A DNA stretch of 35,142 nt from Bacteroidota bacterium. Its GTDB lineage: Bacteria; Bacteroidota; Bacteroidia; Bacteroidales; JAAUTT01. A program made the position numbers and the translations under genes. Positions 1,613-6,360 of the stretch are shown here, in pieces; within the stretch, counting starts at the first letter, position 1; each line of letters begins with the position of its first letter. The notes beneath the pieces were generated by a model that did not search any database, was not told the DNA's origin, and saw only the letters and a list, made by a program, of their open reading frames with translations. Where the stretch lies: the NCBI GenBank assembly GCA_021779665.1, contig JAJYAG010000057.1:1-35142 (forward strand), in the 5' to 3' direction.

Positions 1613-2491
1613 TTAGCCATTCATGTGCTCACGAATTGTCTTCAATGCCAATGGTAATTCCTTTTCCATTTCTTTCCACCGACATTCCACTGCCAGTTTG
1701 CCTTTATATTTTATCTGTTTCAGTGCCCTGAAATAAGGACGGAAGTCATCGCCTGCAACTCCCGGAGCTGTGCGGTTTTCCTTTTCGGCAATATGTGTAT
1801 GTTTCAGAAGCTTTCCAGCCTTAACAATAGACTCAGCAGGTTCGCCATTTTTTAGCATATGGTAAATATCGGCCAACAAACGGATGTTTGGATGATTTAC
1901 TCTATTCACATAATCAATCCCCTCTTCCACCGTGTTTAAAAGGTTGGTTTCACCATAATTCAATGGCTCCAGCACAATGGTAACTCCGTTCTTTTCAGCA
2001 ATAGGGCCTATTTTCTGATTAATTTCAATAAATTGTTGAACGGCTTTCCCTTTATCAAATCTATCGGGTATTTTTCGTGATCCTCCACTACCGAAAACAA
2101 GAATTTTAGTTGAGGACTGCTGCATTCTGCTTAAAGCTGTTTCGGCATATTTAAGAATGGCGTCGGTATTTACATCGGGACCCACACACTTCAGATTACC
2201 CGGCAGAAAGCTATTTACTGCATACAAAGGAAAATCAGCCGCTTTCAGTTTAGCCATATTTTCAGCAAACTTCTCATCACTTTCGTTGGGAATAAAAAAT
2301 TTGCCAACAGTTTCTTCGAAAAAATTATATTGATTTTGCTTTACGAGGGAAGCATTGTCGACACCGGTGCAAATGCCCAGCTCCAGAGAAAAAGGTTTTG
2401 CGAAGCTGTTTCCTGCAAAAAGATCGTGCGACACAAGAATTGATGCTGACCCCAGCAGAGAGGTCTGAAGAAATTTACGACGATTAATCAT
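1613..2491 (-). CDS. Tat-exported sugar phosphate isomerase/epimerase-like TIM-barrel protein
   Basis: A 292-residue protein of the xylose-isomerase-like/AP-endonuclease-2 TIM-barrel superfamily. The N-terminus, NRRKFLQTSLLGSASILVS, is a twin-arginine signal, so the folded and probably metal-loaded enzyme is exported. Candidate metal ligands follow the family order: Glu in VLEPLNYGET, Asp and His in LLADIYHM, His in KHTHIAEKENR, and Glu in LAVECRW. Homologues include hydroxypyruvate isomerase and sugar epimerases; the substrate here is unknown. Its upstream region (2492-2702) is shared with the divergent VIT/vWA gene. Closely followed by the MBL hydrolase, which suggests a small catabolic unit, but that is inference. 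Confidence 0.8.
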   Translation of the reverse strand: MINRRKFLQTSLLGSASILVSHDLFAGNSFAKPFSLELGICTGVDNASLVKQNQYNFFEETVGKFFIPNESDEKFAENMAKLKAADFPLYAVNSFLPGNLKCVGPDVNTDAILKYAETALSRMQQSSTKILVFGSGGSRKIPDRFDKGKAVQQFIEINQKIGPIAEKNGVTIVLEPLNYGETNLLNTVEEGIDYVNRVNHPNIRLLADIYHMLKNGEPAESIVKAGKLLKHTHIAEKENRTAPGVAGDDFRPYFRALKQIKYKGKLAVECRWKEMEKELPLALKTIREHMNG

Positions 2492-2582
2492 ATGTCAATA
2501 GTTAGTTGTTGGGTAATATTAAAGAATAAACCCGAGAAATCCAACTGGAAGCCTTGCTGAATTCAGCTGATCACTGTCCTTT

Positions 2583-2632
2583 TACACTTATTTCTCCAAT
2601 CTTACACTTATAAAGTAAACCACTACACTTAT
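2583..2632 (+). promoter_or_regulatory. Three direct repeats TACACTTAT, a candidate LytTR-type operator
   Basis: The 9-mer TACACTTAT occurs exactly three times, at 2583-2591, 2603-2611 and 2624-2632, with centre spacings of 20 and 21 bases, i.e. two helical turns. The last copy ends four bases before the TTGACA at 2637. Direct 9-10 bp repeats one to two helical turns apart, placed just upstream of the -35 element, are the known layout of LytTR-family response-regulator sites (for example E. coli BtsR/YehT, whose half-site resembles ACCRCTYA). The repeats and spacing are seen directly; the binding protein is inferred. Confidence 0.5.
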
Positions 2633-2636
2633 TGTT

Positions 2637-2665
2637 TTGACAAAAAGTCCTCCCGGTGATAGGAT
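2637..2665 (+). promoter_or_regulatory. Putative promoter of the VIT/vWA gene
   Basis: TTGACA at 2637-2642 and TAGGAT at 2660-2665 are separated by 17 bases, the classical sigma-70 geometry. The same bases also fit a Bacteroidota layout of TTG, 20 bases, TA, but the following TTTG is absent (GGATAC instead), so the -7 box is weak. A weak core next to operator repeats suggests an activated promoter. Confidence 0.4.
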
Positions 2666-2690
2666 ACCTTCACTGAAAAATTAACCAAAA

Positions 2691-2695
2691 GGAGG
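2691..2695 (+). promoter_or_regulatory. Strong Shine-Dalgarno before the 2703 start
   Basis: AAAAGGAGG ends seven bases before the ATG at 2703. Such a complete ribosome-binding site is unusual in Bacteroidota, whose ribosomes mostly do not use it. The hexamer TCCTCC at 2649-2654, about 37 bases upstream, could pair with GGAGGA at 2691-2696 if it is inside the transcript, but it lies between -35 and -10 of the proposed promoter. The site favours 2703 over the in-frame ATG at 2796. Confidence 0.45.
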
Positions 2696-2702
2696 ATTAC
2701 CA

Positions 2703-5033
2703 ATGAACCGAGCATGTTTTTACCAAATCACAAACTTGCATGAGAAAAAGCAACATGCGAGCTGCATCCGACCTGTAAAAAATAATTTATTTCGGATGAA
2801 AAATTTAAACTACACCATCGAAGGCCGCGACATACAGGTATTAATTCTGTTTATTCTGGCCACACTTGTTTGCTCCCTGGCAACAGCACAGGACAAATCC
2901 GAAAACAAAACCCTTTCACCCTATTTTATCGTTCTAAGCGATAACCCTGCGACAGATAAGCTTCCGCTGAAAAATACCAACGCCGAAGTAAACATTGCCG
3001 GAGTAATTTCGGATGTTACCGTTCACCAGGTTTATAAGAATGAAGGCAAGAACGCTCTGGAAGCTATTTACACTTTCCCGGCTTCAACCAATGCAGCTGT
3101 TTATGCAATGGAAATGAAAATAGGTTCGCGCATTATCAAAGCTAAAATTGAAGAAAAACAAAAAGCCCGTAATGACTACGAACAAGCTAAATCGGAAGGC
3201 AAGCGCACTTCATTACTTGAACAGGAGCGTCCCAATGTTTTTCAGATGAATGTTGCCAACATTATGCCCGGCGACGAAATTGAAGTGACAATGAAGTACA
3301 CCGAATTGCTTGTTCCCGAAGGCGGCGTTTACCAGTTTGTTTACCCAACAGTTGTTGGTCCGCGCTACTCAGGCGAAAGTACCAATACAAGCAGCTTTGT
3401 AAATACTCCCTACACCAGGGAAGGTGTTGCGCCGCTCTATAATTTCGATATAAACGTGAACATCAATGCCGGAATGCCAATTCAGAATATCACCTGTGGT
3501 TCGCACAAAGTATTGGTAACTTACCCGCAAACAGGCGCAGCCAGCATTGCTTTGGATAAATCGGAAACCAAATCGGGTAACCGCGATTTTATTCTGAAAT
3601 ATCAGCTTTCGGGCGACCAGATTGAGTCGGGCTTAGTGCTTTATGAGCATGGCGACGAAAACTTCTTTTTACTGATGGTTCAGCCACCAAAGAAAGTTGT
3701 TAAGGAAGAAATTCCCCCACGTGAATACGTGTTTATTGTGGATGTTTCTGGCTCCATGCACGGTTTCCCGCTTAATGTATCCAAAAACCTGTTGCGTAAC
3801 CTGGTTGTAAACCTTCAGCCGACTGACAAATTCAACATCGTGGTTTTCGCCGGAAATTCAGGAACTATGTCACCGGCTTCAGTCCCTGCTACCCTTGAAA
3901 ATGTTGAAAAAGCCTGCAAGTTCATCGATACCCAGAACGGTGGTGGTGGTACCAATCTGCTTCCGGCCCTTCAGAATGCATTTGCACTGCCAAAAGCCGA
4001 TGCTTCTGTAAGCCGCTCTTTTGTAATAGTAACCGACGGTTATGTGGATATCGAAAAAGAAGCCTTCGACCTGATCAAAAAGAGCAATGACAACTCAAAC
4101 CTCTTTGCTTTCGGAATTGGCAGCAGTGTAAACCGCTATTTAATTGAAGGAATGGCGCATGCCGGTTTAGGTGAACCATTTATCGTGACCAGCGAAGCCG
4201 AGGCCAATGCCGAAGCAACAAAATTCCGCAAGTATATCAACTTCCCTTACCTCACAAACATTAAGAAAAACTTCTCGGGTTTTGATGCTTACGATGTGGA
4301 ACCGATAACTGTTCCCGATGTTTTTGCAGAACGTCCGGTGGTGATTTTCGGAAAATACAAAGGTGCGGCAAAAGGTAATATTACCATCAAAGGTCTTGCA
4401 GGAAAGAAAAGCTATTCCAAAACTTTCAATGTTGCTGAAACAAAACCTTCCGGGGACAATGCTGCCATCCGATACCTGTGGGCACGCAAAAAAATACAGA
4501 TGCTCGACGATTACAACAACATCAGCTCCGACGAAAAATCGATAGAGGAAGTTACCGGCCTGGGACTGAAATACAACCTGCTTACCGCCTACACATCGTT
4601 CATCGCCATTGAAGAAGATGTGAAAGCTAATGACGGCGGACTTGAAACTGTGAAACAACCGCTGCCCCTGCCCGAAAACGTATCTAACTCAGCTGTTGGT
4701 TTCGACCTGGAGGTAGACGAAGCAGAAGGTACTTTCGAAGCTTACAGTGAAATAGTGATACAGCAGATTAAAATTGAAGCTCAGAAAACAAAAGTGCTCA
4801 GTGAAATTGAGGACCACATGATGCAAAATCTTACCAACTGCATTGTATCGTCGTGCGAAACCATACAAAACATAAAAGTGGTTGTGGATGCATCGGGAAA
4901 AGTGACATGCGTGAGTGTTGCCGGCGAAGATGTTTCGGAAGTGCTGAAAGAACAGATTATCCAGATTATTAAAAAGTGGGATTTTAAGAAATTCGGTATC
5001 GTTGAACAGTGGAGTTTTGAAATTAAATTTTAA
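2703..5033 (+). CDS. VIT and von Willebrand factor A domain protein, exported
   Basis: A 776-residue protein. Residues about 85-200 form a VIT (inter-alpha-trypsin) domain (AEVNIAGVISDVTVHQVYKN, then EAIYTFPASTNAAVYAMEM). A vWA domain follows, with the MIDAS motif DVSGSM from residue 347, the Thr of GGGGTNLL and the Asp of VTDGYVD, so it can bind a divalent metal and a ligand. The last 60 residues (IKVVVDASGKVTCVSVAGE to the end) look like the TonB-C/AgmX-type C-terminal domain of Bacteroidota. A hydrophobic export segment, VLILFILATLVCSLATAQ, lies at residues 47-63. From the 2703 start it is preceded by an odd 31-residue extension; the in-frame ATG at 2796 would give a normal signal peptide. 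The start at 2703 was kept because of its strong ribosome-binding site. Role unknown; probably cell-envelope protein-protein contact. Confidence 0.85.
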   Translation: MNRACFYQITNLHEKKQHASCIRPVKNNLFRMKNLNYTIEGRDIQVLILFILATLVCSLATAQDKSENKTLSPYFIVLSDNPATDKLPLKNTNAEVNIAGVISDVTVHQVYKNEGKNALEAIYTFPASTNAAVYAMEMKIGSRIIKAKIEEKQKARNDYEQAKSEGKRTSLLEQERPNVFQMNVANIMPGDEIEVTMKYTELLVPEGGVYQFVYPTVVGPRYSGESTNTSSFVNTPYTREGVAPLYNFDINVNINAGMPIQNITCGSHKVLVTYPQTGAASIALDKSETKSGNRDFILKYQLSGDQIESGLVLYEHGDENFFLLMVQPPKKVVKEEIPPREYVFIVDVSGSMHGFPLNVSKNLLRNLVVNLQPTDKFNIVVFAGNSGTMSPASVPATLENVEKACKFIDTQNGGGGTNLLPALQNAFALPKADASVSRSFVIVTDGYVDIEKEAFDLIKKSNDNSNLFAFGIGSSVNRYLIEGMAHAGLGEPFIVTSEAEANAEATKFRKYINFPYLTNIKKNFSGFDAYDVEPITVPDVFAERPVVIFGKYKGAAKGNITIKGLAGKKSYSKTFNVAETKPSGDNAAIRYLWARKKIQMLDDYNNISSDEKSIEEVTGLGLKYNLLTAYTSFIAIEEDVKANDGGLETVKQPLPLPENVSNSAVGFDLEVDEAEGTFEAYSEIVIQQIKIEAQKTKVLSEIEDHMMQNLTNCIVSSCETIQNIKVVVDASGKVTCVSVAGEDVSEVLKEQIIQIIKKWDFKKFGIVEQWSFEIKF

Positions 5034-5175: not shown

Positions 5176-6360
5176 ATGAAAGCAATAACTACAAACATAT
5201 CCTGGTTTTCTTCCTTTCTCATTGCACTGATACTTCTGGTATCGTGCAATGACCGGAAGGAAAGCCAAAGCAGCTCTGCTCAATCCGACTCCGTTTCAGT
5301 TCACTTTGCTGCCGACACATTGATGCCGGTTGCCGCTTCCCGCGAAAGCGTTACTTTTATTCTGGGTGAGGACAAGAGTTCTGAAAATCCCTACTACGCT
5401 GAAGCTACCAAATATTTCAGCTCCGAAAGTCAGGAAAAAACGTTGCATCTGGTAACCTCGTGCCGTTCACTGGTGGAGGTGCGCCAATATCTGGTAAAAC
5501 ATGCTCCCGCAAATCAACTTCCATGGGGAAGGATAAACCTGGTTTCGCATGGCGACCAATGGCTGGGTTTAAGCGTGAAGGTAACACCCGATTCACGCAG
5601 AACAACTTTGGAACGTCTTCAGGAATTTATTGATGCAGGCACCTTTAATCCGCTTCCCGACAGCCTTATCGATAAGAATACGGAGATCGCGCTTCATGCC
5701 TGCGGTATCGGTAACAACAAAGCATTTGTTGAGACTTTCGGAAATGTCTTCAAGAGTAAAAGTGCCGTTCCGCATGTGATTGCTCCAAGGTTGTTCGAAT
5801 TCTTTTCAACCGTTAATCAGGGTGAGAGTGGCCGTTATCAGGCAAAAGTCTGGATGGTACCTTATAAAAAAGACGAGAAACCCGGAGATATCATTCTCTG
5901 CAACCTACTGCATGAGGAATATCCTGACGAAAACATTAACTGGCAGGATGCGCTTACGCGCACTCAGCCCCGTTTTGCCGGAGACACTTATCATTACACC
6001 TTCGATATCCCGGTAAATCTCATAATCAATCTTTCAGCCAACGACTCTCTCCCGGAGCTTTCAAGTACCGAAAAAATACTTCACTGGATAGACCAACAAC
6101 CGGAAATCAATCATATACTCTCCAAAATTCAGATTCCGGCTGAGCTCTTCAGCTGGAACCTGAAAAAAGGATTCTCTAAAAACAAAGACGGAAAAAGATG
6201 CGTGGCCATTTCAGTAAAGGGTTTCTGCACCGTGCTTTGCATTCTTAAACCGCTTGTAGAGAAAACATCAACAGCAAGCAATCAGCCTTTTATGCCTGCC
6301 ACAAACGATACCGCATATTTCTATACGGTGAAAGGCAAAACCTTAAATATTAAATCGTAA
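5176..6360 (+). CDS. Lipoprotein with clan CD peptidase-like (caspase/CHAT/DUF4347-like) core
   Basis: A 394-residue protein with a lipoprotein signal: MKAITTNISW, a hydrophobic stretch, then LILLVSC with lipidation at Cys24. The mature region has a strand-His-Gly motif, INLVSHGDQW (His125), and 51 residues later a strand with Ala-Cys-Gly, IALHACGIGNN (Cys176). This His-Gly plus Ala-Cys-Gly pair and its spacing match the catalytic dyad pattern of clan CD cysteine peptidases and the related DUF4347/CHAT domains. The C-terminal half (DTYHYTFDIPVNLIINLSAN onward) is unrecognised. The gene ends four bases before the penicillin-binding protein ATG, so the two form an operon. Protease activity is an inference from two motifs. 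Confidence 0.6.
   Translation: MKAITTNISWFSSFLIALILLVSCNDRKESQSSSAQSDSVSVHFAADTLMPVAASRESVTFILGEDKSSENPYYAEATKYFSSESQEKTLHLVTSCRSLVEVRQYLVKHAPANQLPWGRINLVSHGDQWLGLSVKVTPDSRRTTLERLQEFIDAGTFNPLPDSLIDKNTEIALHACGIGNNKAFVETFGNVFKSKSAVPHVIAPRLFEFFSTVNQGESGRYQAKVWMVPYKKDEKPGDIILCNLLHEEYPDENINWQDALTRTQPRFAGDTYHYTFDIPVNLIINLSANDSLPELSSTEKILHWIDQQPEINHILSKIQIPAELFSWNLKKGFSKNKDGKRCVAISVKGFCTVLCILKPLVEKTSTASNQPFMPATNDTAYFYTVKGKTLNIKS

Follow-up and report, generated by a model that had tools for sequence, protein, structure and literature searches.

The DNA sites described for LytTR proteins consist of two repeats, each 9-11 nt long and separated by 10-13 nt, and lie mostly just 5' of a promoter (PMC4847170, PMC6193735, PMC11347149); triple sites have been described for RcoM1 and CoxC (PMC11347149). 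For Bacteroidota, the printed sites that we found in the open literature are only predictions, made for membrane-bound Bacteroides LytTR proteins (PMC6193735). Here we analyse a window of 35,142 nucleotides, which is contig C53 of a Bacteroidales draft genome (6.94 Mb in 305 contigs) and carries three copies of the 9-mer TACACTTAT upstream of a gene for a protein with VIT and von Willebrand A (vWA) domains. Since known LytTR sites match this layout and triples are known, the array belongs to a known operator class.

Each described system resembles the window in part. The HdrR and BrsR sites of Streptococcus mutans are direct repeats of 9 bp, separated by 12 bp and placed 4-11 bp upstream of the -35 element, and the BrsR site, ACCACTTAT-12-ACCGCTTAT, is close to TACACTTAT; unlike the window, they have two copies and Firmicutes promoters, and their regulators have no receiver domain and are held by membrane inhibitors (PMC6193735). 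LRS-like operons of Bacteroides thetaiotaomicron and B. ovatus share phased direct repeats just 5' of a Bacteroides promoter (TGTA-19-TATCTTTG), but these repeats are 11-bp units of the form TCCGG..TTCA, come in two copies, go with membrane-bound LytTR proteins and are predicted only (PMC6193735). For RcoM1 and CoxC, a LytTR domain binds three direct repeats spaced 18-21 bp apart; their repeats (TTCNNGCA / TTNNNGCN) differ from ours, both proteins are one-component CO sensors, and CoxC overlaps the -35 element and represses (PMC11347149). The Escherichia coli regulators BtsR (YehT) and YpdB belong to LytS/LytTR two-component pairs, and a yjiY oligonucleotide carries ACCGCTTA and ACCACTCA 21 bp apart, but with two copies, a different sensor type and a different half-site (PMC4847170). 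The first-pass annotation had likened the repeat to the BtsR half-site ACCRCTYA; its core, ACACTTA, shares most positions of the printed yjiY sites without the ACC, which leaves a similarity only. AgrA of Staphylococcus aureus has the contact motif FhRhHxS in common with the regulators considered below, with Asn (N201) where array-linked regulators have His (PMC4227749).

The features of the locus are as follows; G001 is the genome of the same genus that holds the closest orthologue of the VIT/vWA gene (73% identity).

2583..2591, + strand: half-site 1, TACACTTAT, exact match; at the same place in the G001 orthologue.
2603..2611, + strand: half-site 2, TACACTTAT, exact match 20 bp on; AACACTTAT in G001.
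2624..2632, + strand: half-site 3, TACACTTAT, exact match 21 bp on; compared with G001.
2637..2665, + strand: TTGACA-N17-TAGGAT, sigma-70-like, 10 of 12 matches; neither hexamer is kept in G001.
2665..2672, + strand: candidate -7 box TACCTTCA, whose TAnnTT begins 33 nt past the last ACACTTA; equal offset in G001 (TATTTTCA).
2691..2696, + strand: GGAGGA, Shine-Dalgarno-like by sequence reading, 5' of the ATG at 2703; G001 has CAGGAGGAAACACC before its ATG.
2703..5033, + strand: target gene, VIT and von Willebrand A protein, 776 codons (Pfam VIT 8.1e-34, VWA_3 4.7e-20).
5176..6360, + strand: next gene, 394 codons, no Pfam family; its counterpart also lies 3' of the target in G001.

Exact matching bore out the first-pass description of three phased 9-bp repeats at steps of 20 and 21, the last ending four bases 5' of TTGACA. 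The spacers between copies are 11 and 12 bp, within the 10-13 bp seen between the direct repeats of about 9 bp in LytTR operators. No further exact TACACTTAT occurs in the window; with one mismatch there are 10 matches against a shuffle mean of 6.43, and 12 of 100 shuffles reach 10, so that it is the phased triple that is unusual and not the 9-mer itself.

Across the whole draft genome, ACACTTA-N10-20-ACACTTA matches solely the two pairs of the window array (reversed control pattern: once). Degenerate pairs (at most three mismatches in 18, 21-bp step) showed no excess over the reversed control, with 10 versus 17 in this genome and 63 versus 72 in five genomes of the genus, and neither exact nor degenerate pairs gave a further target in the window genome beyond control. 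Beside its 23 LytTR genes we found one weak degenerate match, at a 22-bp step (L015), and a triple scan with one mismatch allowed per copy gave one match (L001). Two checks had been proposed for the LytTR reading: conservation upstream of orthologues held in the closest orthologue, and genome-wide over-representation did not. On this outcome the window array resembles a single dedicated target rather than a regulon.

The G001 array reads TACACTTAT, AACACTTAT, TACACTTAT; it retains the steps of the window while its spacers have diverged, and TAnnTTCAC follows at an equal distance. The gene order there is sensor kinase, REC-LytTR regulator, array, VIT/vWA gene, counterpart of the window's next gene. 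The kinase (1005 residues) is of the propeller type with Reg_prop, Y_Y_Y, His_kinase and HATPase_c domains, and the regulator has 249 residues. Loci of nine other VIT/vWA relatives or paralogues are without TACACTTA and ACACTTAT. In the genus, the regulator is present in both array-bearing genomes; G002, G003 and G004 lack the array and, among six candidates scored per genome, showed no regulator relative at 1e-40. A single pair with a 19-bp step directly before a start codon in G002 (L027) was set aside.

The first-pass annotation had read TTGACA and TAGGAT as a weak sigma-70 core promoter. These hexamers are probably not the promoter: at their places G001 has TTTAGC and no TAGGAT-like hexamer, and the ungapped comparison keeps TAnnTTCAC. 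The conserved part reads TACCTTCAC in the window and TATTTTCAC in G001, at equal distance from the array. TAnnTTTG is the -7 box of Bacteroidota promoters. The Bacteroides element is printed as TATCTTTG (PMC6193735). In 21 arrays including the window, each read in its own direction, TAnnTT starts 33 nt (n=6) or 34 nt (n=4) after the last ACACTTA, while every other offset occurs at most twice; the ten arrays at 33 or 34 nt include three homologous pairs and so amount to about seven independent cases. Left out of this count were L091 (inside an ORF), a repeated family of G205 and G106 (L096, L097, L102-L105), and L113, L173, L167, L201, L224, L204 and L221; read by eye, L221 has TAnnTT at 33 and L204 ends too early. 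By eye, no TTTG was seen at the expected -33 place in the window or in G001, which would fit an activator-dependent promoter. In 28 units with a 21-bp step the spacer has A at position 14 in 82%, and A or T at positions 14-16 in 89-96%.

The strong Shine-Dalgarno-like GGAGGA before the VIT/vWA gene, kept in G001, is unusual for Bacteroidia; in the window an upstream TCCTCC, within 2646-2696, could pair with it. Ribosomes of Bacteroidia reportedly do not use Shine-Dalgarno sites (PMC9976891).

Genome contigs were scanned for three ACACTTA copies at steps of 19-21, which gave at least 120 loci. Most of the loci listed are 7-mer tandems, and because 21 is three times 7, a pattern scan can mistake ACACTTA tandems for a 21-bp operator array. 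Long tandem runs of this kind were seen in unrelated metagenome-derived genomes (e.g. L106, L110, L128, L168). A first rule for non-repetitive loci kept 13 arrays (steps 21+21 in ten, 20+21 in two, 21+20 in one) and missed L204 and L221; the final rule was set post hoc, after LytTR genes had been seen at these two loci, and L198 passes the first rule and fails the final one. Among the matches listed, the final rule gives 14 non-repetitive loci, with steps 21+21 in 13 arrays, 20+21 in two and no other combination. A LytTR gene lies nearby in 6 of these 14 loci versus 2 of the 106 others (Fisher p 2e-5); under the first rule the figures, again among the matches listed, are 4/13 versus 4/107 (p 0.005). 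With G001, G307 and G132 there are nine linked cases, the others being L123, L132, L153, L204, L206 and L221, and in every one the array lies 3' of the LytTR gene, as read on that gene's strand, at distances between 2 bp and ~1.6 kb. The linked LytTR protein of G132 has 112 residues.

A search of 393 genomes of the order for pairs of ACACTTAT found 17 matches, spread over 10 genomes (reversed pattern: 8 matches); of the 17, 15 are at a 21-bp step, two at 20 (own genus) and none at 19; six of the 17 are one repeated family in G205 and G106, and one is inside an ORF. That family, with ACACTTATGATTCATTCTTTAACACTTAT or a close variant, has five copies in G205 (L096, L102-L105) and one in G106 (L097). 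Across 395 phylum genomes and steps of 11 to 41, the exact 8-mer pair showed no enrichment (30 matches versus 49 for the reversed control, hand-counted) and so is no general feature of the phylum. The 30 include three matches at the 21-bp step and two at the 20-bp step; the window itself supplies one of the three and one of the two.

Among the 23 LytTR matches of the window genome, the best match of the G001 regulator is a protein on contig C105.

Contig C105, 24214-24960, - strand: REC-LytTR regulator, with receiver and LytTR domains (Response_reg 3.1e-15, LytTR 7.9e-17).

Its neighbour looks like a sensor kinase by eye and extends to the contig end; the G001 counterpart of that neighbour has His_kinase and HATPase_c domains. 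Behind the regulator the end of a convergent gene follows after 49 bp, with no array. Flanked in this way by a sensor-like and a convergent gene, the regulator is really apart from its presumed target here, the two lying on separate contigs, whereas in the sister genome G001 they are adjacent. This comparison favours the first-pass suggestion that the VIT/vWA gene may be controlled by a sensor kinase/LytTR system encoded elsewhere. Orthologues of the regulator elsewhere in the order were found in G150 (72%) and G307 (69%). In G307, ACAGTTA, ACACTTA and ACACTTG stand at steps of 20 and 21; this array follows the regulator at a distance of ~860 bp, and the next start codon comes 123 bp later. 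In G150, no ACACTTA triple occurs within 1.5 kb of the regulator orthologue. A search of solved structures returned 63 sequences, and the best ones inspected match the receiver domain.

The three repeats are, very probably, the operator of a LytTR response regulator, with the C105 protein as the best candidate regulator and the VIT/vWA gene as the target. The strongest competitor keeps the LytTR operator and has it bound by another of the genome's 23 LytTR proteins. Binding by C105 is itself a prediction, and two linked proteins that consist of the domain only (L090, L221) are distant from every LytTR protein of the genome; we consider this alternative improbable, given that C105 is the closest relative in the genome of all seven full-length array-linked regulators, that it shares 78% identity with the G001 regulator while the next protein shares about 32%, and that none of the other 22 shares its His at the position of AgrA N201.

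This position is the x of the LytTR motif FhRhHxS, and the residue touches DNA (PMC4227749). It is His in all nine linked LytTR domains and in C105, and in none of the 22 other LytTR proteins of the window genome; the linked regulators share ancestry, so the common His is partly inheritance. In 30 loci of close regulator relatives from the order the residue is Lys in 18, His in 8 and Gln in 4, and in the phylum sample (22 readable of 29) it is Gln in 17, Asn in 4 and His in one. We counted 8-mer repeats in the intergenic DNA of the 30 order loci: lag 21 gave 27, against a mean of 7.5 and a maximum of 16 for other lags from 10 to 40, and without the G001, C105 and G307 loci lag 21 gave 23 (others: mean 6.8, maximum 14). 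The 29 phylum loci showed no peak (8 at lag 21; mean 4.3, maximum 12), a difference for which the contact residue is a likely cause. The 23 LytTR loci of the window genome itself also showed no peak at lag 21 (9, with 17 at lag 15).

Behind the regulator gene of 15 of the 18 Lys-type loci (among L292-L316) stands a second 21-bp-phased repeat, ACCGTTAAC, of the RCCG[TA][TA]AACTGATT-like form, at a distance of 35-148 bp and once of 411; two of the three loci without it end at the regulator. TAnnTT follows the last copy after 34 nt (n=8) or 35 nt (n=6) in 14 of the 15 cases, the contig of the fifteenth ending first. Counted on the strand of the regulator, the Lys-type loci gave 19 pairs at lag 21 and no more than 4 at any of the other lags from 12 to 31; the opposite strand gave 4 pairs at lag 21 and no more than 3 at the others. 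The Lys-type regulators probably use the phased RCCG[TA][TA]AACTGATT-like repeat as their class of operator. Because the consensus was picked after the repeats had been seen, and because these regulators have a common ancestry, the link between residue and half-site counts as a strong lead rather than proof.

Tentatively, and with a little more doubt than belief, we propose a code within this Bacteroidota subfamily, in which His goes with ACACTTA, Lys with ACCGTTAAC and Gln or Asn with other half-sites, together with a rigid promoter module of 21-bp-phased repeats that has TAnnTT 33-35 nt further on and often lies directly 3' of the regulator gene. An ACACTTA triple lies within 1.5 kb of only two of the eight His-type regulators of the order sample; C105 and the G150 orthologue are among those without one. 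If the code is true, the targets of many uncharacterised sensor/LytTR pairs could become readable from sequence, and displaced targets such as that of the window could be re-paired with their regulators.

A step of 20-21 bp is by itself not diagnostic of LytTR proteins, and AraC-type hybrid two-component regulators, for example, use sites two helical turns apart. A regulator of this or another non-LytTR kind at the window array is nevertheless most unlikely in view of the LytTR genes at 6 of 14 versus 2 of 106 loci among the matches listed, of those in G001, G307 and G132, and of a repeat that changes with the LytTR contact residue. Equally hard to sustain is control of the divergent sugar-isomerase-like gene (1613-2491, - strand), whose start codon and the first repeat are some 90 bp apart: the regulator gene occupies that side in G001, where the VIT/vWA gene is retained, and the 33-nt -7 box distance falls on the VIT/vWA side. 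That the repeats are chance or a decayed, functionless tandem repeat, as the long ACACTTA runs and the 7-mer tandems of the scan might suggest, is barely credible, since the orthologue keeps the steps while the spacers have diverged, a step of 20 is no multiple of 7, and the promoter distance is fixed.

Under the preferred reading, a LytTR operator served by the C105 regulator, a signal would reach the sensor, which would phosphorylate the C105-type regulator. Regulator molecules would then occupy the repeats, which lie on the same face of the helix at a spacing of two turns. The last repeat sits immediately 5' of a promoter with a candidate -7 box, in which no -33 box is recognisable, and the bound regulator would recruit RNA polymerase, which would turn on the VIT/vWA gene and probably also the next gene (5176..6360), by activation rather than repression. 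The array, its conservation in the orthologue, the linkage to LytTR genes elsewhere, the distance to the -7 box and the kinship of the candidate regulator are established at the level of sequence comparison, and they lend comparative support to the LytTR-like operator of the first-pass annotation. An unlabelled promoter becomes in this way a testable circuit with a named regulator, a probable sensor, three half-sites and a predicted -7 box. The approach also suggests how LytTR regulators of Bacteroidota could be matched with their targets; relatives of the C105 regulator are common in that phylum (at E 1e-40, 188 of 393 genomes of the order have them).

The first 31 codons of the target gene derive from an inserted element. 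A 93-nt insertion (2703-2795) stands exactly at the VIT/vWA start codon, where G001 has the empty site. Copies of this leader element include window 2703-2795, L059-L083 and L318-L344, and each of the five genomes of the genus has some at the starts of genes; ten of ten genus copies read are in frame with the downstream gene, with lengths of 90, 93, 96 and 129. One copy precedes a MiaA-like gene (by eye), and the copy at L079 has lost the second ATG. Matches at E 0.001 occur in 24 of 354 genomes of the order, and G062 has 22, of which 19 have a stop codon in that frame. Such copies in other genera speak against a selected peptide as a general rule.

Some copies stand in tandem, and most of 19 aligned copies begin with ATGAA and end with GGATGAAA. 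The window copy and L321 are each predicted to form two hairpins, and the start codon falls within the second. A search of window positions 2480-2900 against Rfam, up to E 5, gave no match, and four relatives gave one, below the gathering score and outside the leader element; no description of the element was found in the accessible literature text. The element appears to be a small mobile or recombining unit whose copies are anchored at start codons. A second copy in the window genome (G000:C182:59285-59425, L286) opens a 670-codon frame just 5' of a LytTR gene (C182:61703).
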